A stretch of 64,000 nt of DNA from NCBI GenBank assembly GCA_002840685.1, contig PHBU01000007.1, positions 62,001 through 126,000 on the forward strand, in the 5' to 3' direction. Origin of the DNA: Chloroflexi bacterium HGW-Chloroflexi-6. Its GTDB lineage: Bacteria; Chloroflexota; Anaerolineae; Anaerolineales; Villigracilaceae. The position numbers were made by a program, and so were the translations under genes. Each line of letters starts with the position of its first letter. Position 1 is the stretch's first letter. Below the pieces are notes generated by a model. The model ran no database searches, was not told the DNA's origin, and saw only the letters and a list, made by a program, of their open reading frames with translations. Below are positions 47,871 to 61,190 of this stretch, piece by piece.

Positions 47871-47946
47871 GCCCCCATCGTCTAGTGGACTAGGACGCAG
47901 CCCTTTCAAGGCTACGACCGGGGTTCGAATCCCCGTGGGGGCACCA
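47871..47946 (+). tRNA. tRNA-Glu (anticodon UUC)
   Basis: The 76-base gene folds as a cloverleaf: acceptor GCCCCCA pairs with TGGGGGC, the anticodon loop is CTTTCAA with anticodon TTC, the T-arm reads CGGGGTTCGAATCCCCG, and the encoded 3' end is ACCA. It has its own promoter and terminator. The integrated element begins just beyond it, and tRNA 3' ends are common integration targets. Confidence 0.97.
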
Positions 47947-47955
47947 ACATAGATC

Positions 47956-48000
47956 CATCTCGAACCACATCGAATAGAAGTGGGTTCGAGATGTTTTCTT
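47956..48000 (+). terminator. Terminator after tRNA-Glu
   Basis: CATCTCGAACC (47956-47966) pairs perfectly with GGTTCGAGATG (47983-47993), followed by TTTTCTTTT. The start codon of the next gene lies inside the right arm (47991). Confidence 0.85.
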
Positions 48001-48221
48001 TTAATAAACAAAATTCCCCTCAGGTTTTAAACAACTTCATATCGGTTGAGACTGCTGTTGCGTACAGTGGTTACAGCCCACAATATCTTAGGCGTCTTCT
48101 CCGTAATTCCAAATTAGATGCCCTAAAGGTTGGCCAGGTATGGCTCATCAATAAAGATGGGCTTGATGCTTATTTGGCTGCAGTTTCTGCTACAACCGAT
48201 CATCGTTTTGGTCCTAAGTAA
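47991..48221 (+). CDS. Excisionase-family HTH DNA-binding protein
   Basis: The 76-residue protein is a MerR/excisionase-type helix-turn-helix: ISVETAVAYSGYSPQYLRRL then LDALKVGQVWLINKDGLDAY. Such proteins accompany recombinases and set the direction of excision. Its ATG sits in the tRNA terminator hairpin and has no good ribosome-binding site. The recombinase starts 25 bases downstream. Confidence 0.78.
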   Translation: MFSFNKQNSPQVLNNFISVETAVAYSGYSPQYLRRLLRNSKLDALKVGQVWLINKDGLDAYLAAVSATTDHRFGPK

Positions 48222-48246
48222 GAATTTTAACAATACGGAGCAGAAC

Positions 48247-49761
48247 ATGATTGGAAAAGTTACATCAAGCAAAGGCCTGGATCCACGGGATATGCCACCA
48301 GGTACTCTCGTTATTATTTATGTTCGCAATTCTCCAGGGGATAACCAGACAATTGAGAGCCAGGAATCAGCGCTGGTGAACCTGTGTCATGAGCGCGGAT
48401 GGAAAATTGTTCGAATTTTTAGAGATAGGTGGGAGTCCGGAAAAACAACAAACCGCGAGGGTTTCGAATATCTGGCCTATGTTACACGTCAGAAACCCCG
48501 AATAGCTCAGATGTTGATCATTTGGGACTTTTCGCGTTTTGGGCGGAATCAAGACACGCAAATGTTTTATAGCGCAGAGATGCGTTTGAATGGCTGGTTG
48601 ATTTATTCGTATCGGGACGATGTTCCTTCTGGTTCTATGGGGCGGATATTTGAAGCGCTTATAGCGTGGAAAAATGAGCAGTTTCTAGTTGATCTTCGAT
48701 TGAACACAATTCGAGGCCTCGCGTTTATAGCAGAACGTGGTTGCTTGCCTGTCGGTTTGGTTTGTAAAGGATATAGGGAAACTATCATTTCCCTCGGCAG
48801 TGTAGCTAGAGATGGTTCTGAGCGAATGGGGCGCAGGCCGGAAGTGGACCCGGATGTTGCGCCTCTGGTAGTGAGGGCCTTTGAAATGAAGGCTTTGGGT
48901 GCTCCTCAGAATGCAATAGCAAAAGCTACAGGATTATATAGTTCTAAATCCGGGTCATGGAATCATTTTTTCTCCAACCGTGCCTATGTAGGAGAATATG
49001 AGTTTCATGGGGAGATATTTACTAATGTTTATCCTGCCTTAATCTCACGAGAACTTTTTAAAACCGTTCAAGAAAAGATAATGCCAAAAGCAACCATTTT
49101 GCGGGCTCGAAAACTACATCCTCGGCGCCGAGGCTCTAGCTTTTTTTTGGCCAGCCAGTCGGTATGCAAATATTGCAACCATCCTATGGAAGGTAAAAGC
49201 GTGCATGGGCACCGTTATTATGTTTGTTCGTTACATAACGAAAAAAGTGAACACTGTCCGGATTCTGAGCTATTACCTGCTGATGACGCTGAACATGAAA
49301 TTCTGAGGGTGCTTCTGGAACATATTGTACAGAAATCGTATTTAAATGATTTACTGCAGTGGACAAACTCATTTCTCAACTCTGGGTTGGATGAAATCTC
49401 CCTCCAATTAAGGGCCCTGGAGGATGAGTTCGTCACTGCTCAGAAACGGGCTAGGAAGATGGCGGTCGCATTTGGGAGTATGGACCAGCCTAGTAAATAT
49501 GCAGAGCAAACTCTGCGCGATGCTGAAGCTCTGGCAAATCAGTTGGAGTCTCAAATTTTTGATTTGCATCAACAGATTTCGAAAAACCGGATTGAATTAT
49601 CACCCGCCCAGATAGAGCCGCTGTCAACTAATTTTGTTGCGATGATCAATCATGGTGAGTATTTTGACCTTCGTGAAGTTATTGAACAATTATGTTCTCG
49701 GATCGTTATATCTAGCAATGAGATTGTTGTTGAAGTTCACTTTCCTGTCGGGGCAATCTAA
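48247..49761 (+). CDS. Large serine recombinase
   Basis: The 504-residue protein catalyses site-specific integration or excision through a Ser-DNA intermediate. The resolvase domain opens VIIYVRNSPGDNQTIESQES, with the probable catalytic Ser29 (the usual form is YxRVS) and later the WDFSRFGRN motif. A recombinase domain (about 190-290), a zinc ribbon (CKYCNHP ... CSLHNEKSEHC) and a coiled coil follow, the layout of phage and ICE large serine integrases. GGAG precedes the ATG at 48247. The TnpB-like gene starts 3 bases after its stop. Confidence 0.92.
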   Translation: MIGKVTSSKGLDPRDMPPGTLVIIYVRNSPGDNQTIESQESALVNLCHERGWKIVRIFRDRWESGKTTNREGFEYLAYVTRQKPRIAQMLIIWDFSRFGRNQDTQMFYSAEMRLNGWLIYSYRDDVPSGSMGRIFEALIAWKNEQFLVDLRLNTIRGLAFIAERGCLPVGLVCKGYRETIISLGSVARDGSERMGRRPEVDPDVAPLVVRAFEMKALGAPQNAIAKATGLYSSKSGSWNHFFSNRAYVGEYEFHGEIFTNVYPALISRELFKTVQEKIMPKATILRARKLHPRRRGSSFFLASQSVCKYCNHPMEGKSVHGHRYYVCSLHNEKSEHCPDSELLPADDAEHEILRVLLEHIVQKSYLNDLLQWTNSFLNSGLDEISLQLRALEDEFVTAQKRARKMAVAFGSMDQPSKYAEQTLRDAEALANQLESQIFDLHQQISKNRIELSPAQIEPLSTNFVAMINHGEYFDLREVIEQLCSRIVISSNEIVVEVHFPVGAI

Positions 49762-49764
49762 ATT

Positions 49765-51279
49765 ATGAATTTCATTGTTACTTCTATACGGTTAGAGATA
49801 GATAATATCTCTTCGGAGCAGGATTTGCTCATCCACGAACGATTAATGCGCCCACAACAATCCGCCATGCGTATTGCATATAACCGGTTGCAAAATAAGT
49901 GGACAGAGCGTGAAATCTGGGGGGACTTGCGAGATAAATTTCCTTTCCTCACCGGGCGAAATGTTAATGATGCCATCACACAAGCCAAGGGAATTCTCGC
50001 CTCGCAGTTCGAATTGCTCCCAGTAGATACAGAAAAAACGAAACGGGCGCTGGGTAAATCTAAAAACGCGCAGATAACTAACAAATCTCGGCCCCTACAT
50101 AAGAGAGTGAAATCCCTATACTTGAAGGTAAATCAGCTACAGGAACATCAGGCTAATGGAACAGTTCCTCCCGTTATTTTCGGTGGGCAACATGCTTGGA
50201 AAGATGTTGTACGCCGATTGTCGAGCGCGAGAGCACAGTGGCGGCATCGCCGTAGCAATCAATTTATTAGTCGGGGAGCCAAAAACAATCGCGGGAATGC
50301 GCACTGCCGGCTGGTGATCACCCAAGATAGTGAGCTCGAATTACACATCCGGGTTCCTGACAAAATCAAGAAAAAGAAATCGAAACAAACCACATCGGCA
50401 ATTTGGTTGCAGTTCCCAATTAGCTACTCGAAACAGTTCGACACCCAATTACGTGACTTGGCAACACTGGGTGCAATCGGACAGGTTTCGTACACCGTGC
50501 GCGTTATCAGAATATCGCATCAAACGTATCGGGCTTTTATCACCTGTGATGAATTTGTTGAACATCGAGAATTTTCGACATTTGAAGCAATGCCAAATTG
50601 GGTCACAACTGCTTGCGGCATTGATCTGAACCTTGATCACATCGCCATTTGTATCACGGATCGCAATGGGCAGTTTAGGCGGTGGAATACAATCACGTAC
50701 CCCAATCTGGGTGAACTTCCCCGCCCCAAATCCAAATGGATGATCGGTAATATTGCGCGTGATGCAGTCGATTGGGTAAAAAGCCACAATGCCGAAGCAA
50801 TCGTGCTAGAGGATCTGAGCATTCGTCGCTCTTCTCAATCATCCCGGACCAATCGTCGCACGGTCCCATTTGCATATCGACAACTAGCTCAGGCCATCAC
50901 GCGCCGCGCATTGCGTGATGGCCTGGCAGTAAAAACCATTAATCCAGCATACACATCCTGGATTGGTCGGGTGAAATTTGCTCCTATGTACGGGATCAGT
51001 GTACACGTTGCAGCCGCTTATGTGATTGGCCGACGTGGATTTGGCTTGGATGAACGCCTGCCCCAAAAACTGATCAATAGATTTCCCAAAATTATCGAAA
51101 TTATCGATTATCTTGCCTATTCACCAGATATCGATACTGAGAAATTGCAGGAATGGCGTAACAGGCTCATGGATTGGAAAAAACATACTCCCAACGCTGG
51201 GCGACCATGGCTTTTGTGGGCAACCTTGCATGGGATTAAAAGAATTTCAAGCGAAGCCAGGAGCATCATCCTCGGATGA
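49765..51279 (+). CDS. TnpB-family RuvC-fold protein with altered active site
   Basis: The 504-residue protein is related to IS605-type TnpB, the RNA-guided nuclease ancestral to Cas12. RuvC-I is present in CGIDLNLDHIAICITD (Asp287) and RuvC-II in AEAIVLEDLSIRR (Glu349). In the RuvC-III region, NPAYTSWIGRVKFAPMYG ISVHVAAAYVIGRR, the four-Cys zinc ribbon is absent and His414 occupies the place of the usual Asp. I recall this SVH-x-AAA form as a distinct TnpB-related subfamily; whether it cleaves DNA is unclear. It is coupled to a serine recombinase and followed by a structured RNA-like stretch, so RNA-guided binding is a fair inference. Confidence 0.75.
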   Translation: MNFIVTSIRLEIDNISSEQDLLIHERLMRPQQSAMRIAYNRLQNKWTEREIWGDLRDKFPFLTGRNVNDAITQAKGILASQFELLPVDTEKTKRALGKSKNAQITNKSRPLHKRVKSLYLKVNQLQEHQANGTVPPVIFGGQHAWKDVVRRLSSARAQWRHRRSNQFISRGAKNNRGNAHCRLVITQDSELELHIRVPDKIKKKKSKQTTSAIWLQFPISYSKQFDTQLRDLATLGAIGQVSYTVRVIRISHQTYRAFITCDEFVEHREFSTFEAMPNWVTTACGIDLNLDHIAICITDRNGQFRRWNTITYPNLGELPRPKSKWMIGNIARDAVDWVKSHNAEAIVLEDLSIRRSSQSSRTNRRTVPFAYRQLAQAITRRALRDGLAVKTINPAYTSWIGRVKFAPMYGISVHVAAAYVIGRRGFGLDERLPQKLINRFPKIIEIIDYLAYSPDIDTEKLQEWRNRLMDWKKHTPNAGRPWLLWATLHGIKRISSEARSIILG

Positions 51280-51440
51280 AGTACCTACGGAAGGAACCAC
51301 CTGCTCTGTTAGCTTCGTAGCGCGGGTAACACCCGACCCGGTGCCGCGCCTGACAGCAGGTCAGGACACATTGCATCGGGATGGCAGTTGAGACGCTGTC
51401 CGCTAAACCGCTCGTCAAGGCGGGCGGTTGTACTGCGCAA
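51280..51440 (+). ncRNA. Candidate structured guide-type RNA (omega-RNA-like)
   Basis: The 240-base gap after the TnpB-like gene begins with a GC-rich stretch without a convincing reading frame but full of paired segments: GCGCGG (51320-51325) with CCGCGC (51344-51349), CCTGAC (51349-51354) with GTCAGG (51360-51365), and AACCGC (51406-51411) with GCGGTT (51424-51429). TnpB omega-RNAs lie at this same position, downstream of or overlapping the gene's 3' end. Boundaries are approximate and transcription is inferred. Confidence 0.6.
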
Positions 51441-51444
51441 AAAT

Positions 51445-51490
51445 TTAGCGTATGTATCGATAGACCTTCATAGGTCGATACATACGCTAA
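51445..51490. promoter_or_regulatory. 16-bp perfect inverted repeat before the ParB-domain gene
   Basis: TTAGCGTATGTATCGA (51445-51460) and TCGATACATACGCTAA (51475-51490) are exact complements around a 14-base centre that itself can pair ACCT with AGGT. It lies between the RNA-like stretch and the ribosome-binding site at 51512. Possible roles: a ParB/parS-like site, an operator, a recombination site, or the 3' hairpin of the RNA. No T-run follows. Confidence 0.65.
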
Positions 51491-51522
51491 TCTCGATAAC
51501 ATTTTCTTCATGGAGGTTAGTT

Positions 51523-53220
51523 GTGTCTTTATTTATTGTAATGGACAATATTCCTGTATCCAAGGTTGTTTACAACAAAAAAACATCATTGTTTTCCTTC
51601 TCACCACGTCAAAAGATTGACACTAATCTGGTTGAAAACCTTAAAGCCAGCATCGGTGAGTTAGGTTTCTGGACCCCTGTGATATTAAATGCACAATATG
51701 AGGGCATTGCGGGAAATCACCGTTTTTTAGCATACCTTGAACACGCCAAGGAGACAGGGATTCCAGAACACCACCTGACCATCCCAGCAATCGTTATTGA
51801 TTGCGATGAAGCCACTGCTGTTAGTGTCGCGCTTGCCGAAAACGAGGTGCGTGAAGATCTATTGCTCTTCGAAACCTTGCGCAGCCTGATGTTGGTTTCT
51901 CGCAAAAAACCGCAGGTATCCCAAAAGGTTTTTCGCACCGATAGAGAAACTCTTTTCCAATTGAATTTTTGGCAGCAGGAAATCAACAAAACTCCAGAGT
52001 TATTTCAAGTACGTCATCCGCTACAAAAACTACTTAACCGTGAATGGCTGGAACTACTCAGCAACCGCCTGGCTAATTACCCAGTATTGCACGAAAAATT
52101 TTTGGAGCAATTGCGCCATCCCACATGGGTACAGGCACGCTCACTCGCTGACTTTGATCGAGAAATCAGCCAGGCATTGATGGAGTACGGCATCCAATTC
52201 CAGCAAGGCGAAACCTGGAATCCCCAACCAACGGACAAGTGCCTTAACAATGCTGCCACTATGGAATCACTCCTCCAACATTTCCAGGCTGTCCCTACAG
52301 AGAACCCGGTCCCGGGAAATACGCTCGGTTTGTGCCCCCTGCTCCTGCTCCAGCCCACTTACCTGAAACAAGGCGCTGAGGGGTCCACGCAAGCCATCTT
52401 TATCCTTGATCGCCTCGATGCATTTTGTGTTGATCCAAAAGTTGCGAAAAAAACGAGCTGCTTCAGCAACCTTGAGCGGGAATGTGCAGAACAAACAGTG
52501 AATAAACTCATTAGTGAAGGCGTTCATGCCATTTTGCCGGAAAGGCTGATCGAGAAAATGCGCGCAGATGAATTTAGCTGGGCATGTCCAATCTTAAACG
52601 GCGATGCCTGCACACCACAAACTTGCCTGCACCGCGGAGCTGAAGTTCCCGCCTATGCTCTGGTAGTACATCCTAACGGTGAGCATACGATGATCTGCCT
52701 GCACGCGGAATGCGGTACCGAGGCGCAGACGGTTTTGATCGATTTGGAAGCTGAATCGGCAAAATTGGAGCAGCAGCGCCAGCTAAACGCATTGAATGAA
52801 CTTCGTCGTGCTACAGTGGAACACACCCTGCTGGCATCTGAAGATCAAAATATCCAGTTGGATGCTCCAGGATTCATGGAAAAACTCGAGTCGATTTTGA
52901 CCCCCCACTGGGACCTTACTACCATGGAGCACATAGTAATTGGCTGGCAGGCTGCCACACGCCAGTTGATCGCAAACCAACTTGGCCTTACGGATCTGAA
53001 TTCCCCGGAAGTGATCCAAAAAATGAGCGCCGATTATGGCGCTCTGACAACCAATATTACACTTGAGAACACATCGCAACTATTTGGTTTGTTGCATGAG
53101 CGCTACTGCACCACATCAGAAGCCCGCCAGCGTTGGTTGGCGTGTGTGATTGCAGTGCGCGCATGGCGTGATGAAACGAATAACATTGAACGCATATCTG
53201 CAGCACAGGCCGCCATATAA
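51523..53220 (+). CDS. ParB-like nuclease-domain protein
   Basis: The 565-residue protein begins with a ParB/Sulfiredoxin-like domain (about 20-120): IGELGFWTPVILNAQYEGIA, the GNHRFLAYLEHA motif corresponding to the ParB nucleotide-binding GxxR box, then AENEVREDL. The remaining 440 residues are unrecognised, with two Cys clusters (CPILNGDACTPQTC and CLHAECG) that could bind zinc, and a helical C-terminus. GGAGG at 51512-51516 points to the GTG at 51523; an ATG at 51541 is the alternative. No ParA is nearby, so plasmid-like partition is not supported; regulation or DNA targeting within the element is possible. Confidence 0.75.
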   Translation: MSLFIVMDNIPVSKVVYNKKTSLFSFSPRQKIDTNLVENLKASIGELGFWTPVILNAQYEGIAGNHRFLAYLEHAKETGIPEHHLTIPAIVIDCDEATAVSVALAENEVREDLLLFETLRSLMLVSRKKPQVSQKVFRTDRETLFQLNFWQQEINKTPELFQVRHPLQKLLNREWLELLSNRLANYPVLHEKFLEQLRHPTWVQARSLADFDREISQALMEYGIQFQQGETWNPQPTDKCLNNAATMESLLQHFQAVPTENPVPGNTLGLCPLLLLQPTYLKQGAEGSTQAIFILDRLDAFCVDPKVAKKTSCFSNLERECAEQTVNKLISEGVHAILPERLIEKMRADEFSWACPILNGDACTPQTCLHRGAEVPAYALVVHPNGEHTMICLHAECGTEAQTVLIDLEAESAKLEQQRQLNALNELRRATVEHTLLASEDQNIQLDAPGFMEKLESILTPHWDLTTMEHIVIGWQAATRQLIANQLGLTDLNSPEVIQKMSADYGALTTNITLENTSQLFGLLHERYCTTSEARQRWLACVIAVRAWRDETNNIERISAAQAAI

Positions 53221-54130: not shown

Positions 54131-57121
54131 ATGACCGAACAACAAATCGAACAAAATCTAATCACGAAATTAGAAGAGCTCAAATACACCCACCGCCCGG
54201 ACATTCATGACCGCGCCGCGCTGGAGCGAAATTTCCGCGAGAAGTTTGAGACGTTGAACCGCGTGCATCTCACCGATAACGAGTTCAAACGATTAAAGGA
54301 TGAAATTGTTACGGCGGATGTGTATGCAGCCTCGCGTACCCTGCGCGAGCGCAATACCTTTGACCGCGAGGATGGCACGCCACTACACTATACGTTGGTC
54401 AATATCAAAGATTGGTGCAAGAACACCTTCGAGGTGGTCAATCAGTTACGCATCAATACCGAAAACAGCCATCACCGCTACGATGTGATTTTGCTCATTA
54501 ACGGCGTGCCGGTGGTGCAAATCGAGTTGAAGACGCTGGGCATCAGTCCGCGACGCGCTATGCAGCAAATCGTGGATTACAAGAACGATCCCGGAAACGG
54601 TTACACCCATTCGCTTTTATGCTTCATGCAATTGTTCATTGTCAGCAACCGTACTGATACGCTGTACTTTGCCAATAACAACAATTCGCATTTTAGTTTC
54701 AATGCCGATGAGCGCTTTTTGCCGTTTTACCGTTTCGCAAGTGAAGATAATAAAAAAATCACCCAACTGGATAATTTTGCAGAAACGTTTTTGGCGAAAT
54801 GTACTCTTGGAGAAATGATCAGCCGGTATATGGTGTTGGTTGCCAGCGAGCAAAAACTGCTGGTGATGCGGCCCTACCAAATCTATGCGGTCAAAGCCAT
54901 TGTGGAGTGTATTCACCAGAACAGCGGAAACGGTTATATCTGGCATACCACTGGCAGCGGTAAAACGCTGACTTCGTTCAAAGCCTCCACACTACTAAAA
55001 GACAATCCCGACATTGAAAAATGCCTGTTTGTGGTGGACCGAAAAGACCTCGACCGCCAGACGCGCGAGGAATTCAACCGATTCCAAGAAGGCTGCGTAG
55101 AGGAAAATACTAACACGGCGACTCTGGTGCGGCGGCTCCTTTCGGACGATTATGCCAATAAGGTGATTGTTACTACAATCCAGAAACTTGGTTTAGCGCT
55201 TGACGAAAACAATAAGCGTAACTCTAAGGAAAAAAACAAGCCCAATTACAAGGAACAGCTTAAGCCCCTGAGCGATAAACGTATCGTTTTCATCTTCGAT
55301 GAATGTCACCGCTCACAGTTTGGCGATAATCACAAGGCGATCAAGGAATTTTTCCCCAAAGCCCAGTTGTTTGGTTTTACCGGTACGCCTATCTTTAAGG
55401 AAAATGCGACCTACACCCAAATCGAGGGGACGCAGGCTTCCTACAAAACAACCGAAGACCTCTTCCAGAAGCAACTGCACGCCTATACCATTACGAACGC
55501 CATCGAAGATGATACTGTTTTGCGGTTCCATGTGGCTTACTTCAAGCCGCTAGGCGAGCATATTCCGCAGCCTGGCGAAGCGCTGACCAAGCAAGCCGTG
55601 ATCGAAGCCATTTTAGAGAAGCACGATTCCGCTACCGCCGGGAGGAAATTCAACGCATTGCTGGCGACCTCTTCCATCAACGATGCGATTGAATATTACG
55701 GATTTTTCAAAAACATCCAGGCAAAAAAGCAGGCGAAGGATGAATCCTTCCAGAAACTGAATATTGCCTGTGTATTTTCACCTCCCGCTGAAGGTGATAA
55801 CAAACAGGATGTGCAACAGATTCAGGAAGATTTGCCACAGGAACGAGTCGACATCAAGGTGGAGCCCGAGAAAAAGAAAGCCGCGCTGAAATCCATCATT
55901 GCGGACTATAACGCCGCGTATGGCACAAATCACAACATCAACGAATTCGACCAGTACTATCAGGATGTGCAAAAGCGCATCAAAGATCAGCAGTATCCCA
56001 ACCGCGACTTGCCCCATGCCCAAAAAGCGGACTTGGTGATTGTGGTGGATATGCTCCTGACGGGCTTTGACTCCAAATACTTGAACACGCTGTATGTGGA
56101 TAAAAATCTCAAACATCATGGCTTGATTCAGGCGTTTTCGCGCACGAACCGCGTCTTGAACGATTCCAAGCCGTATGGTAATGTGCTGGATTTTCGCCAA
56201 CAGGGCGGCGCGGTGGACGAAGCGATTGGACTCTTCTCTGGCGAGTTCAAAGAGAAAGCCAAAGAAATCTGGCTGGTGGATGCCGCGCCAGTGGTGATTG
56301 ACAGGCTGAAAGACGCGGTCAATAAATTAGATTTATTCATGCGGTCAGCAGGGTTGAAATTCGCGCCGGAGGATGTCCCCAACTTGAAGGGCGACGCCGC
56401 ACGGGTTAACTTCATTGAGCGCTTCAAGGATGTGCAGCGCTTCAAAACGCAACTGGAGCAATACACCGACCTGACCGAAGAACATAAGGCAGTTATTACG
56501 CAGGTGCTGCCCGAAGAGCAATTGCAATCCTTTCGCGCGGCGTATTTGGAAACCGCGCAACGCCTGAAAGAGAAGCAAGATAAAGAGCAACAGAATCAGG
56601 ATGTGCAGCAACTCGATTTTGAATTTGTGTTGTTTGCCTCCGCCGTGATTGATTATGACTACATCATGAAACTCATTGCTCGTTATACCGAAGGCAGGCC
56701 AGGCAAACAGGCCATGACCCGCGAGCAGTTGATCGGGCTGATCGCCTCCGATGCCAAATTCATGGACGAGCGCGAACACATCACCGCCTACATTGACACG
56801 CTGGAAGTGGGCAAGGCGCGCAGTGAGCAGGAGATTCGAGCAGGCTACGAAGCCTTCAAAGCCGAGCAGAACGCCCGCGAACTGAGTAGGATCGCGGAGA
56901 AGCACGGAGTAGACGCTGCCACCCTGAGCGCCTTTGTGGATGAAACCATCCAACGCATGATTTTCGATGGCGATCAATTAAGTGACCTGTTTGCCGCATT
57001 GGAACTGGGCTGGAAAGAACGCGCCGGACGCGAAAGTGACCTGATGAGCGACCTGATACCGCTCTTGAAGAAACTGGCGGTCGGGCGCGAGATTTCGGGA
57101 TTGAGGGCGTATGAGCAATAA
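54131..57121 (+). CDS. hsdR: Type I restriction endonuclease subunit R
   Basis: The 996-residue subunit has an N-terminal PD-(D/E)xK nuclease domain (Asp118 in RYDVILLI; Glu132-x-Lys134 in IELKTLG), a superfamily 2 translocase with Walker A TTGSGKT (273-279), the DECH box (FIFDECHRSQFGDN) and motif VI (QAFSRTNRV), and a helical C-terminus that contacts the methylase core. All key residues are present, so it should be active. The start is ATG at 54131 (MTEQQIEQN). The hsdS ATG overlaps its 3' end. Confidence 0.95.
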   Translation: MTEQQIEQNLITKLEELKYTHRPDIHDRAALERNFREKFETLNRVHLTDNEFKRLKDEIVTADVYAASRTLRERNTFDREDGTPLHYTLVNIKDWCKNTFEVVNQLRINTENSHHRYDVILLINGVPVVQIELKTLGISPRRAMQQIVDYKNDPGNGYTHSLLCFMQLFIVSNRTDTLYFANNNNSHFSFNADERFLPFYRFASEDNKKITQLDNFAETFLAKCTLGEMISRYMVLVASEQKLLVMRPYQIYAVKAIVECIHQNSGNGYIWHTTGSGKTLTSFKASTLLKDNPDIEKCLFVVDRKDLDRQTREEFNRFQEGCVEENTNTATLVRRLLSDDYANKVIVTTIQKLGLALDENNKRNSKEKNKPNYKEQLKPLSDKRIVFIFDECHRSQFGDNHKAIKEFFPKAQLFGFTGTPIFKENATYTQIEGTQASYKTTEDLFQKQLHAYTITNAIEDDTVLRFHVAYFKPLGEHIPQPGEALTKQAVIEAILEKHDSATAGRKFNALLATSSINDAIEYYGFFKNIQAKKQAKDESFQKLNIACVFSPPAEGDNKQDVQQIQEDLPQERVDIKVEPEKKKAALKSIIADYNAAYGTNHNINEFDQYYQDVQKRIKDQQYPNRDLPHAQKADLVIVVDMLLTGFDSKYLNTLYVDKNLKHHGLIQAFSRTNRVLNDSKPYGNVLDFRQQGGAVDEAIGLFSGEFKEKAKEIWLVDAAPVVIDRLKDAVNKLDLFMRSAGLKFAPEDVPNLKGDAARVNFIERFKDVQRFKTQLEQYTDLTEEHKAVITQVLPEEQLQSFRAAYLETAQRLKEKQDKEQQNQDVQQLDFEFVLFASAVIDYDYIMKLIARYTEGRPGKQAMTREQLIGLIASDAKFMDEREHITAYIDTLEVGKARSEQEIRAGYEAFKAEQNARELSRIAEKHGVDAATLSAFVDETIQRMIFDGDQLSDLFAALELGWKERAGRESDLMSDLIPLLKKLAVGREISGLRAYEQ

Positions 57122-58373
57122 GAAAACAGAAGGCGCACTCACGCCCAAGTTGCGATTCCCAGAATTTCAAGACGATTGGGAACAATATTTTGGCAACCGG
57201 TTATTTAACCTAATTAATAACAAAGACCATGACTCTAGTCTACCTGTTTTAGCAATAACACAGGAACATGGAGCGATTCCACGCGATTTAATCGATTATC
57301 AAGTGTCTGTGACTGACAAGAGCATTGAAAGTTATAAAGTTGTTGAAGTAGGCGACTTTATTATTAGCCTTAGATCGTTTCAAGGCGGTATTGAGTATTC
57401 GAGATATAGAGGGATATGCAGCCCAGCCTATATTATTCTTCGCAAGAATACAGATGTTTCTGAGGCATACTTCAAATATTTTTTCAAGACCGAGAGATTT
57501 ATTCAGCAACTCCAAAAGAATTTGGAAGGGTTGCGCGATGGAAAGATGGTCAGTTACCAGCAATTTTCAGAATTGCTATTACCCATGCCTTCCAAAGCCG
57601 AACAACAAAAAATCGCGGACTGCCTGACCTCGATCGATGAGTTGATTGCGGCAGAACGCGCACAACTTGACGCGCTCAAAGCCTATAAAAAAGGGCTGCT
57701 GCAAAATCTCTTCCCTGCCGAAGGCGAGTCCCTGCCCAGGTTGCGCTTCCCTGAGTTTCAGGATGCGGGGGCCTGGGAAATTCTCCCAATTGGAGTAAAA
57801 GTTGATTTACTAACAGGCTATCCGTTTGATGGTCTGGATATTTCTGAAAACCCTACAGGAATTAGATTACTTAGGGGAATAAATGTAACAGAAGGTCTAA
57901 TTCGTCACAGCAAAGAAATTGACAGATATTATCCAGAAAGCCCGGATAAACTTGAAAAATATCGAATTCAAAAGAATGATTTAGTTATCGGGATGGATGG
58001 TTCAAAAGTTGGAAGGAATGCAGCAATCATTTCTGAATCCGATGGAGGGTCATTGCTTGTACAGCGTGTAGCACGATTAAGGTCTAACAGTGTTTCAACT
58101 ATTCGATTTATATTTCAACAAGTCAACTCGAGTAAGTTTCATACCTATGTAGACAGAATCAATACTAGTTCTGGAATTCCTCATATTAGCAGCAAACAAA
58201 TTAATGACTTCCAAATCTGTTTTCCATCTCTCGATGAACAACAAAAAATTGCCGAGTTCCTTACTTCCATCGATGAGCAAATCGCCGCGCAAAGTCAGCG
58301 GCTAGCGGCGCTCCATGTCCACAAGAAAGGGCTGCTTCAAGGGCTGTTTCCATCTGCTGGGGAGGTGAAGTAA
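57111..58373 (+). CDS. hsdS: Type I restriction specificity subunit S
   Basis: The 420-residue protein has two target-recognition domains, each opening with a related block (KLRFPEFQDDW and LRFPEFQDAGAW) and ending in a related spacer helix (EQQKIADCLTSIDELIAAE and EQQKIAEFLTSIDEQIAAQ). This internal repeat gives the pseudo-twofold symmetry of HsdS and recognition of a split DNA sequence. The two recognition segments are clearly more AT-rich than the spacers, which points to exchange by recombination. Confidence 0.93.
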   Translation: MSNKKTEGALTPKLRFPEFQDDWEQYFGNRLFNLINNKDHDSSLPVLAITQEHGAIPRDLIDYQVSVTDKSIESYKVVEVGDFIISLRSFQGGIEYSRYRGICSPAYIILRKNTDVSEAYFKYFFKTERFIQQLQKNLEGLRDGKMVSYQQFSELLLPMPSKAEQQKIADCLTSIDELIAAERAQLDALKAYKKGLLQNLFPAEGESLPRLRFPEFQDAGAWEILPIGVKVDLLTGYPFDGLDISENPTGIRLLRGINVTEGLIRHSKEIDRYYPESPDKLEKYRIQKNDLVIGMDGSKVGRNAAIISESDGGSLLVQRVARLRSNSVSTIRFIFQQVNSSKFHTYVDRINTSSGIPHISSKQINDFQICFPSLDEQQKIAEFLTSIDEQIAAQSQRLAALHVHKKGLLQGLFPSAGEVK

Positions 58374-59473
58374 TGCCGAACGAACATCTTCAATCAATCG
58401 CAGGCGTCGCCCATACCATCAAGGATTTAGACAAAAAACTTATTCTGATCTATGGCTTCAACGGAGTGGGCAAAACGCAACTATCCGTTGCTTTCAAGGA
58501 TGTAACGAAAGACCCAAATAACGGAAATCATACGGGTGTTTATTACAACGCATACAGCGAAGATCTGTTTTCTTGGGACAACGACGAAGAAAATGACGGT
58601 CAAAATATCCGCCTGATGATAAAACGAAGCACACTCAATCAATATCACTCATTACTCGACAAAGATAGCCTTCGCCAAAAATTATCCCTTTACAAGCCGA
58701 AATATGATTTTGCCTTGAAGTTTTACGATGATGTCGCGCTTGGCATTGAATCGGTTCAATTTTTTATGAATACCGAGGATGACACGGCAGCCGCCCCCAC
58801 TGAATTCATAAAGGTTTCTCGTGGAGAAGAACGGATTTTTATCTGGTGCTTTTTCCTGGCGTTGTTTGAAGTGGAAGGCTGGACAAGTGAACGATCAGGT
58901 CACTTTTTTATTGACGACCCAGTTTCGAGTCTGGACGATCATAATATTTTTGTTACAGCGGCTTCTTTGATAAATTTGATTGATAACCATTTCAAAGACA
59001 GGAAGATTGTTATTACCACCCACCATATCGGTCTTTTTGCTATTCTTGCAGATTGGTTGGGAAAAGGCGAGAAGGCTGATTCTTATAAAAAAAGCACTCA
59101 GTTGCACATCCTAAAGCGTGAGGGAAATACCGTAAGTCTCTTAAGCCCTGCAAAGGATGTTTTTTTGTATCATTTGGAACTTCTACAAACATTAAAGACT
59201 GCAATTGATAACCAAGAACTCTACGCATACCACTTTGCTTTATTAAGGCAAGTCCTCGAAAATATCAGTTCTTTTCTGGGCGTGGGACGGGTTTCTTTTG
59301 TACTTGAGCAGATAGGCATCACCGATCCAGACGAAGTTAATCAAATTCTCAATACGCTTTCACATAAGACGGTCTTTCGTTACGAAGCCAAAGAATTGGT
59401 TGAAGATAACGTAAGGCTATTCAATCAAATTTTCAGCGCTCTAATGAGCAAATATAACTTTGTAATTCATTAG
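58373..59473 (+). CDS. PrrC-like ABC-type ATPase, candidate anticodon nuclease
   Basis: The 366-residue protein has an ABC/SMC-type ATPase: Walker A GFNGVGKT (28-35), signature-like VSRGEERIFIW (148-158), Walker B FFIDDPVSSLD (178-188), and switch His in ITTHH (217-218). The C-terminal third contains Arg292-x3-Glu296 (LLRQVLEN) and His331 (LSHKTVF). PrrC, the anticodon nuclease kept silent by a type I RM complex, uses Arg320-x3-Glu324 and His356. Location inside the hsd operon, start overlapping the hsdS stop, and size (PrrC about 396) all fit. The match is by motif only; a non-nuclease ATPase remains possible. Confidence 0.65.
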   Translation: MPNEHLQSIAGVAHTIKDLDKKLILIYGFNGVGKTQLSVAFKDVTKDPNNGNHTGVYYNAYSEDLFSWDNDEENDGQNIRLMIKRSTLNQYHSLLDKDSLRQKLSLYKPKYDFALKFYDDVALGIESVQFFMNTEDDTAAAPTEFIKVSRGEERIFIWCFFLALFEVEGWTSERSGHFFIDDPVSSLDDHNIFVTAASLINLIDNHFKDRKIVITTHHIGLFAILADWLGKGEKADSYKKSTQLHILKREGNTVSLLSPAKDVFLYHLELLQTLKTAIDNQELYAYHFALLRQVLENISSFLGVGRVSFVLEQIGITDPDEVNQILNTLSHKTVFRYEAKELVEDNVRLFNQIFSALMSKYNFVIH

Positions 59474-59480
59474 GATTACT

Positions 59481-61190
59481 ATGACCAACGAACAACAAAA
59501 AGAATTAGGTAAAACCCTGTGGAGCATCGCCGATCAACTGCGCGGCGCGATGAACGCGGACGACTTCCGCGATTACATGCTCTCCTTTCTCTTTCTGCGT
59601 TATTTATCCGATCACTACGAAAGCGCCGCCAAACGCGAATTAGGGAAAGACTACCCGACTGAAAGCGAGATCGTAGCCGCCAAGGCACAAATCACCGCGC
59701 AAAGAGCGCAAGCGTCCGCGCCGCAGAAGGCAAAAGCGAAACAAACCGTAGACGCCCCGGAAGAGCCAACGGAACCCATTGTCACCGCGCTGCAACTTTG
59801 GTATGAGCGCAACCCGAATGACATTGTCCAATTTGAAAAGCAAATGCGCCGCAAGGTTCATTATGTTATCGAACCGCCCTATCTGTGGGGTAGCATCACC
59901 AATATGGCGCGCACGCAAAATGGCGAATTACTGCGTACGCTGGAAAAAGGTTTCAAGTACATCGAAAATCAATCCTTTGAAAGCACCTTCCAGGGGCTGT
60001 TCTCAGAAATCAACCTTAACTCTGAAAAACTCGGCAAAACCTACACAGATCGTAACGCCAAACTCTGCACCATCATTACCAAAATCGCAGCTGGTCTGGC
60101 AGATTTCTCCACCGATAGCGACACCCTCGGCGACGCCTATGAATACCTGATCGGGCAGTTTGCGGCAGGGTCAGGCAAAAAAGCAGGCGAGTTCTACACT
60201 CCCCAGCAAATTTCCGACATCCTGTCGGGCATTGTCATTCTGGACAGCCAGGACCCAAGCACGGGCCCCAAAAAGCGGCTCAACAGCGTCATGGATTTTG
60301 CCTGCGGCTCCGGCTCGCTCCTGCTCAACGTCCGCAACCGGCTCGGCAACAATGGCATTGGCAAAATCTACGGGCAGGAAAAGAACATCACCACCTACAA
60401 CCTGGCGCGCATGAACATGCTCCTGCACGGCGTTAAAGATTCAGAGTTCGAGATTTTCCACGGCGATACCCTGCTCAACGAATGGGAAATGTTGCGCGAA
60501 CTTAACCCCGCAAAACAAATGCGCTTCGACGCGGTGGTTGCCAATCCTCCGTTTAGTTACCGCTGGGAACCAACCGACGCCCTGGGCGAAGACATCCGCT
60601 TCAAAAATTACGGCCTCGCCCCCAAATCCGCCGCCGATTTTGCCTTTCTGCTACATGGCTTTCACTTCCTCGCGCAGGAAGGCACGATGGCAATCATCCT
60701 GCCGCATGGCGTCTTATTTCGCGGCGGCGCGGAAGAACGCATCCGCAAAAAACTCTTGAAAGACGGCCATATTGATACCATCATCGGCTTACCCGCCAAT
60801 CTGTTCTATTCCACTGGCATCCCCGTCTGCATTTTGGTACTCAAAAAATGCAAAAAATTCGACGACGTGTTATTCATCAACGCCAGCGAACACTTTGAGA
60901 AAGACAAACGTCAAAACCGCCTGACGCCCGACCACATCAAAAAGATTCTCGATACCTATCAATTCCGCACGGAAGAAGTCCGCTATTCCGTGCGCGTGTC
61001 AATGGAAGAAATCGAAAAGAATAACTACAACCTGAATATTTCCCGCTATGTCAGCACATCGACAGAAGAAGATGAAATAGACCTGGCTGCCGTGCATCAA
61101 GAACTGCAAACGCTACAAGGCAAAATCAAATCTGCTAAAGAAAAGCATAATGCCTTCCTGAAAGAGCTTGGTTTGCCGCCTTTGCCTTGA
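59481..61190 (+). CDS. hsdM: Type I restriction methylase subunit M
   Basis: The 569-residue N6-adenine methyltransferase has an N-terminal helical domain (TLWSIADQLRGAMNADDFRD), AdoMet motif I (VMDFACGSGSLLLNV), catalytic motif IV NPPF, and a C-terminal coiled tail that contacts HsdS. The N-terminal domain has an Ala/Lys-rich insertion at about residues 75-95. It starts 7 bases after the PrrC-like stop, so order R-S-ATPase-M is a single operon. Confidence 0.95.
   Translation: MTNEQQKELGKTLWSIADQLRGAMNADDFRDYMLSFLFLRYLSDHYESAAKRELGKDYPTESEIVAAKAQITAQRAQASAPQKAKAKQTVDAPEEPTEPIVTALQLWYERNPNDIVQFEKQMRRKVHYVIEPPYLWGSITNMARTQNGELLRTLEKGFKYIENQSFESTFQGLFSEINLNSEKLGKTYTDRNAKLCTIITKIAAGLADFSTDSDTLGDAYEYLIGQFAAGSGKKAGEFYTPQQISDILSGIVILDSQDPSTGPKKRLNSVMDFACGSGSLLLNVRNRLGNNGIGKIYGQEKNITTYNLARMNMLLHGVKDSEFEIFHGDTLLNEWEMLRELNPAKQMRFDAVVANPPFSYRWEPTDALGEDIRFKNYGLAPKSAADFAFLLHGFHFLAQEGTMAIILPHGVLFRGGAEERIRKKLLKDGHIDTIIGLPANLFYSTGIPVCILVLKKCKKFDDVLFINASEHFEKDKRQNRLTPDHIKKILDTYQFRTEEVRYSVRVSMEEIEKNNYNLNISRYVSTSTEEDEIDLAAVHQELQTLQGKIKSAKEKHNAFLKELGLPPLP

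Follow-up and report, generated by a model that had tools for sequence, protein, structure and literature searches.

A zinc-finger-less TnpB and its predicted omega-RNA beside a large serine recombinase at the tRNA-Glu end of a genomic island in Chloroflexi bacterium HGW-Chloroflexi-6

The locus analyzed here lies in a window of 64,000 nucleotides from Chloroflexi bacterium HGW-Chloroflexi-6 (contig PHBU01000007.1, positions 62,001 to 126,000), the numbering of which is used below. A tRNA-Glu gene, a small helix-turn-helix (HTH) gene of the excisionase family, a large serine recombinase (LSR), a tnpB gene, a structured RNA, an inverted repeat and a ParB-domain gene follow one another in this order on the + strand. 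On sequence evidence, the set from the HTH gene to the ParB-domain gene is the left, tRNA-proximal end of a genomic island of approximately 29.3 kb and not a free-standing unit. We hold it moderately probable that the locus is the integration module of a tRNA-Glu island (HTH/excisionase and LSR) whose operon captured an IS607-type tnpB-omegaRNA cassette. This reading is built on the anatomy of the locus, the ends of the island, the clade of the TnpB, its retained D-E-H residues and the homology of the omega-RNA. The parts, with their order, strand and coordinates, had been listed in an earlier note on this DNA, and the open reading frames (ORFs), domains, tRNA and RNA fold bear that list out. 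The same note regarded the parts as one compact unit, which is correct in that they are adjacent on one strand and incorrect in that they do not stand alone, forming instead the left end of the ~29-kb island.

The tRNA-Glu (UUC) gene (47871..47946, +; ARAGORN, Rfam RF00005) is the integration site of the island, and sequence similarity with other genomes of the family stops directly past its 3' end. The 12-bp repeat at this 3' end, CCGTGGGGGCAC (47933..47944, +), which represents the attL core, recurs in the same genome at window coordinate 77244-77255 (L075:13244-13255; contig C9:139244-139255), and this direct-repeat search is the means by which the right end of the island was located. Behind the right copy stands a hairpin terminator, ATCCCGCTC..GAGCGGGATTTTTT, which is almost the same as the terminator 3' of this tRNA in a relative (L018), and the genes past this terminator are of ordinary chromosomal look. 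At its far end, the island thus shows a second copy of the tRNA 3' end together with displaced downstream sequence, as in tRNA-linked islands, and the tRNA-linked element proposed earlier is supported by the 12-bp repeat and the displaced terminator. By the empty-site route, the closest relative's neighbouring gene was not found in this genome. Within the island, a type I restriction-modification operon is located at 54131-61190, comprising hsdR, hsdS, a PrrC-like gene and hsdM. The other tRNA-Glu gene of the genome (CUC; L081, contig C3:79520) also has a small excisionase-type HTH gene on its 3' side, which suggests a second island at that tRNA.

The HTH protein (HTH_17/excisionase family, 76 aa; 47991..48221, +; Pfam HTH_17 E 3e-7, TIGR01764 E 1e-7) is encoded by a separate ORF, apart from the LSR (48247..49761, +; 504 aa). 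The latter, the presumed island integrase, carries Resolvase, Recombinase and zinc ribbon (Zn_ribbon_recom) domains, falls within the range of about 450-700 aa for LSRs and aligns with its relatives right to the C-terminus. In a sample of 29 loci with Chloroflexota relatives of the LSR, the aligned C-terminal end has a tRNA no more than about 400 nt away in 12, for example tRNA-Arg (L026), tRNA-Val (L036) and tRNA-Glu (L052), and a TnpB neighbour occurs in none. In the tRNA-linked group (L026, L034-L037, L041, L042 and L049-L053), the C-terminal end lies at or over the tRNA gene. The use of tRNAs is therefore common in this recombinase family and does not need TnpB. In the window, the tnpB ORF starts after a gap of 3 nt behind the LSR stop codon, on the same strand. 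The pairing of an LSR with TnpB was not found anywhere else in the searches made, which covered a 100-member TnpB tree, LSR relatives, Chloroflexota genomes, viral contigs and plasmids. In the tree, the gene upstream of tnpB is an IS607-type small serine recombinase for 45 members, there is none for 54, and the window is the sole LSR case; the rarity of an LSR beside TnpB had been rightly anticipated. In the literature on LSRs and TnpB (reviews and IS607 papers), the pairing is absent from titles and abstracts, most subscription journals being outside this search.

The TnpB (49765..51279, +; 504 aa) matches the profiles NF040570 (E 7e-17) and TIGR01766 (E 3e-12). Its relatives are distant, the best showing about 33% identity, and numerous, being distributed over plasmids, phages, viral contigs and a few Chloroflexota, with 355 stretches or more in a single genome collection at species level. 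For TnpB, a profile scan brought relatives to light, whereas back-translated scans that used single sequences of TnpB, LSR and ParB gave none. The CxxC zinc finger that ordinary TnpBs of this phylum carry between RuvC II and III was observed in none of the 109 clade loci and is likewise missing in the window, so that the TnpB variant remarked on earlier proves to be a member of a zinc-finger-less clade. Among the aligned clade ORFs, D287 is kept in 108 of 109 and E349 in all 109, while position 414 is His in 84, as in the window, and Asp in 25. The AlphaFold2 (AF2) model of the protein (predicted local distance difference test, pLDDT, 87.8) displays the TnpB/Cas12 fold, the best structural match being Cas12f (9i8y, Z 18.0), with ISDra2 TnpB (8exa, Z 14.4) and also Cas12k among the matches. 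The RuvC domain of the model, residues 281-429, aligns with residues 1-158 of Thermus thermophilus RuvC, in which D287 and H414 fall, at equal offset, on D7 and H143, both catalytic in that enzyme. We read this as indicating that the clade has a predicted intact, His-type RuvC site and that the window protein is not inactivated, and the nuclease is probably still active. In the tree, the window groups with L082, a Nitrospirota copy linked to IS607, at a support of 95, the window branch carrying a long-branch warning. A nuclease-dead TldR was rejected, as the triad residues of the clade are retained, and so was a CRISPR effector, as no array was seen at the locus.

Some members of the clade have neighbours of their own interest. 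In Thermus phage Lalka27b (L014:3296-5375), a repeat region annotated as CRISPR lies directly downstream, and the TnpB of this phage may be an early Cas12-like effector. An IscB gene occurs near two clade members (L009:399-4682 and L010:3454-6389), with TnpB directly behind IscB in L010, so that genes for RNA-guided nucleases of two kinds stand close together there. The record of L009 (NZ_CP061967.1, 'Klebsiella pneumoniae' plasmid unnamed2) may be contamination and not a Klebsiella plasmid, because its TnpB falls close to sequences from Desulfofundulus.

The structured stretch 3' of tnpB folds with z = -3.66, none of 200 shuffles being as stable. In Bacillus and Peptoclostridium relatives, a conserved RNA is located 3' of tnpB with compensatory change at 17 of its 35 predicted pairs; it ends in AACCAGG, beyond which the copies diverge. 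A covariance model (R1) was built from the RNAs of 15 relatives, and its best match in the 64 kb is full-length and placed at 51322-51456 (cmsearch, 19.6 bits, E 0.001). R1 also matches the Nitrospirota copy at the expected place. The second-best match, at 47899-47979 (E 0.1), was set aside, as it overlaps the tRNA. RNAs of more distant clade members were not matched by R1, and no Rfam family reached its gathering score for the window RNA. Because the match of the model built from relatives' RNAs is direct evidence, the stretch 3' of the window tnpB is assigned by homology as its omega-RNA, in agreement with the earlier proposal.

The insertion sites of the TnpB relatives were viewed in IS607-type or stand-alone copies (L082-L161, e.g. 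L083, L085, L094, L096 and L098). In 38 of the 61 clade elements that possess an AACCAGG end, the start codon of an ORF of at least 60 codons occurs 4-12 nt past it, versus 10% of random positions. Directly before the left-end motif, GG[AG]GG is found in 42 of 57 elements versus 4.7 in shuffles, an excess that represents an upper estimate, the motif having been picked after seeing examples. With GGAGG on the left and a start codon on the right, the elements therefore lie in the gap that separates the Shine-Dalgarno sequence of a host gene from its start codon, and the transposon-adjacent motif (TAM) of the clade is likely the Shine-Dalgarno sequence itself. No description of insertion between these two signals was found in the literature searched. 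Since IS607 elements cross over at GG dinucleotides and the TnpB of ISXfa1 reads a GGG motif (PMC10711439), the Shine-Dalgarno insertion is a sharpened form of the known IS607 GG preference. At the window, the AACCAGG right end is absent from 44-56 kb, and the clade left end, GGAGG followed by an AACAG-type sequence, is missing, two left-end-like matches being at chance level. A plain nested IS607 copy was rejected, there being no left end and no AACCAGG. The missing ends fit capture and not a fresh insertion and, together with the 3-nt gap between LSR and tnpB, make capture of a cassette the simplest account.

The end of the omega-RNA scaffold (51322..51474, +) was placed by the 16-nt spacing between the model end and AACCAGG in L083, which puts it near 51474 (..CCTTCATAGG). 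The putative guide, TCGATACATACGCTAATC..., follows at 51475..51494 (+). Its first 15 nt form the right arm of a perfect inverted repeat (51446..51489; 15-bp arms at 51446-51460 and 51475-51489, with a spacer of 14 nt), the left arm of which belongs to the scaffold tail; the guide could therefore pair with the tail of its own scaffold. The repeat folds as a hairpin in the predicted RNA fold. A 16-bp palindrome had been noted here before; a repeat is indeed present, its real form being that of two separated 15-bp arms. The left arm has no further copy in the genome, save one site with 3 mismatches. The putative guide region shares no stretch as long as 10 nt with attB or attP, and nothing above 10 nt was detected against the island. 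Allowing up to 3 mismatches, the putative guide has no further site in its own genome; in 20 relatives, a single 3-mismatch site was obtained, in another species and at chance level. The putative guide lies within the island, its distance to the left end being about 3.5 kb and to the right end 26 kb. Integration would therefore no longer rewrite it, and the target would be fixed if the nuclease is active.

TnpB is thought to aid the persistence of transposons by cutting the vacated site, the guide being rewritten at each jump. In the capture reading, the LSR would both insert the island into the tRNA-Glu 3' end and excise it from there, and TnpB would be made together with the LSR from a single transcript, from the 3' side of which the omega-RNA would be cut and bound by TnpB. 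The captured TnpB would remain a nuclease, with a guide that would not be read from the flank of the element and would be fixed inside the island, and it would no longer home with the element. An active TnpB would cut a single, unchanging target, which would most plausibly lie in a competing element or in a lost donor-locus copy. Several points weigh against parts of this account. Chance alone would give approximately one such 12-mer repeat over the stretch that was searched; the right end of the island was accepted because of the place of the repeat and the terminator behind it, not the 12-mer alone. The window LSR points away from the tRNA, whereas its tRNA-linked relatives point towards theirs, and because of this opposite orientation its role as the island integrase is stated as presumed. 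A second LSR is present within the island (L075:1583-3292; window coordinate 65583-67292), its similarity to the first being weak (24% identity, E 0.045), and likewise counts against a firm assignment. Finally, the start of the guide was set by offset across a divergent 3' end.

The ParB_N-domain gene (51523..53220, +; PF02195 E 5e-7) begins with a GTG at 51523, preceded 6 nt upstream by GGAGG, an ATG at 51541 being the alternative start. Likeness of the 559-aa protein to other proteins is confined to its N-terminal ParB part. Searches of 300 Chloroflexota genomes, of viral contigs and of plasmids gave no relative over its full length, the gene is present at none of 96 TnpB loci, and no ParA-like gene was noted among its neighbours. 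As to parS sites, for which the inverted repeat was checked, this repeat is single-copy. We treat the gene as an apparent mere neighbour and not as a conserved partner; the role of cofactor given to it earlier is not supported, given the lack of full-length relatives and of any shared TnpB locus (0/96) in these searches.

Among the alternatives to capture by the LSR operon, it is possible, if unlikely, that the tnpB gene with its RNA is a hitch-hiking IS607-type remnant between the LSR and ParB genes, which has lost TnpA and both ends and has no present role in the island. About half of the TnpB clade is stand-alone, without TnpA, the clade typically inserts just 5' of a gene start, as the ParB start follows here, and the window TnpB is on a long branch. 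However, the intact frame, the catalytic residues and the RNA fold are kept at about 30% identity to relatives, and the 3-nt spacing from the LSR without a left end looks like a maintained operon, not decay. Rather doubtful is the view that the inverted repeat is a terminator or processing hairpin, or an operator for ParB, the omega-RNA then being without a usable guide. A stable hairpin directly 5' of the ParB gene would suit such a function, but it has no T-run in the + orientation and was not called as a terminator, and a left arm with no copy elsewhere in the genome beyond the one imperfect site also argues against it.

A further reading, which we consider improbable, is that the fixed-guide TnpB was exapted as an RNA-guided effector of the island, for defence against a competing element or for regulation, with the inverted repeat sequestering the guide until needed. 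It is consistent with the decoupling of the guide from the island ends, with the type I restriction system and its PrrC-like gene, and with the identity of the putative guide and the right repeat arm, the left arm of which lies in the scaffold tail. Against it, no target was found in the own genome, the 20 relatives yield only the one 3-mismatch site in another species, and the position of the guide was derived by offset in a single example. The fullest version, in which the LSR and an active zinc-finger-less TnpB would form one operon with a guide fixed in the island and hairpinned by its own scaffold, cutting a set target such as a rival element and no longer homing, is likewise put forward with low confidence. 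The earlier idea, in which RNA-guided binding by TnpB steers or protects LSR-driven integration at tRNA-Glu and the ParB-domain protein acts as a cofactor, is very improbable indeed, since adjacency and a common strand are all that favours it, whereas the guide lies inside the island without a match of 10 nt or more to attB or attP, tRNA-linked LSR relatives have no TnpB, ParB occurs at no other locus, and the gene order, sought in other Chloroflexota and further collections, recurs nowhere searched, an outcome that the earlier note had itself set against its proposal.

A TnpB housed in a large integrase's operon, its guide being closed to further rewriting, would provide a test case for nucleases leaving transposons for other jobs, as with Cas12 and TldR. 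The wider clade would offer a compact, zinc-finger-less nuclease with a His in the RuvC site and a likely recognition motif that is the Shine-Dalgarno sequence. IS607-family elements consist of a serine TnpA, TnpB and a reRNA/omega-RNA (PMC10711439, PMC6188088). The window resembles them in its IS607-associated TnpB clade, in the serine recombinase gene directly 5' of tnpB and in the omega-RNA on the 3' side; it differs in that the recombinase is an LSR with a separate HTH gene and not a small TnpA with an N-terminal HTH, that the left and right ends of the clade are missing, and that the putative guide sits within a 29-kb island. Compared with the homing of IS605 and IS607 elements (PMC8612924, PMC10711439), a fixed guide would set the window TnpB apart if its nuclease is active. 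ISDra2 TnpB (PMC8612924; PDB 8exa) shares the fold over residues 3-430, the RuvC I and II motifs and a 3' omega-RNA, whereas the window protein lacks the CxxC zinc finger, has His at the third RuvC position and is structurally closer to Cas12f. As in the tRNA-linked LSRs of Chloroflexota, the LSR adjoins the 3' end of a tRNA, but those recombinases are oriented towards the tRNA and have no TnpB beside them. The nuclease-dead TnpB regulators known as TldR (PMC13418256) are similar in that a TnpB has been freed from transposition, possibly with a fixed guide, and different in that the window TnpB has kept its catalytic residues.

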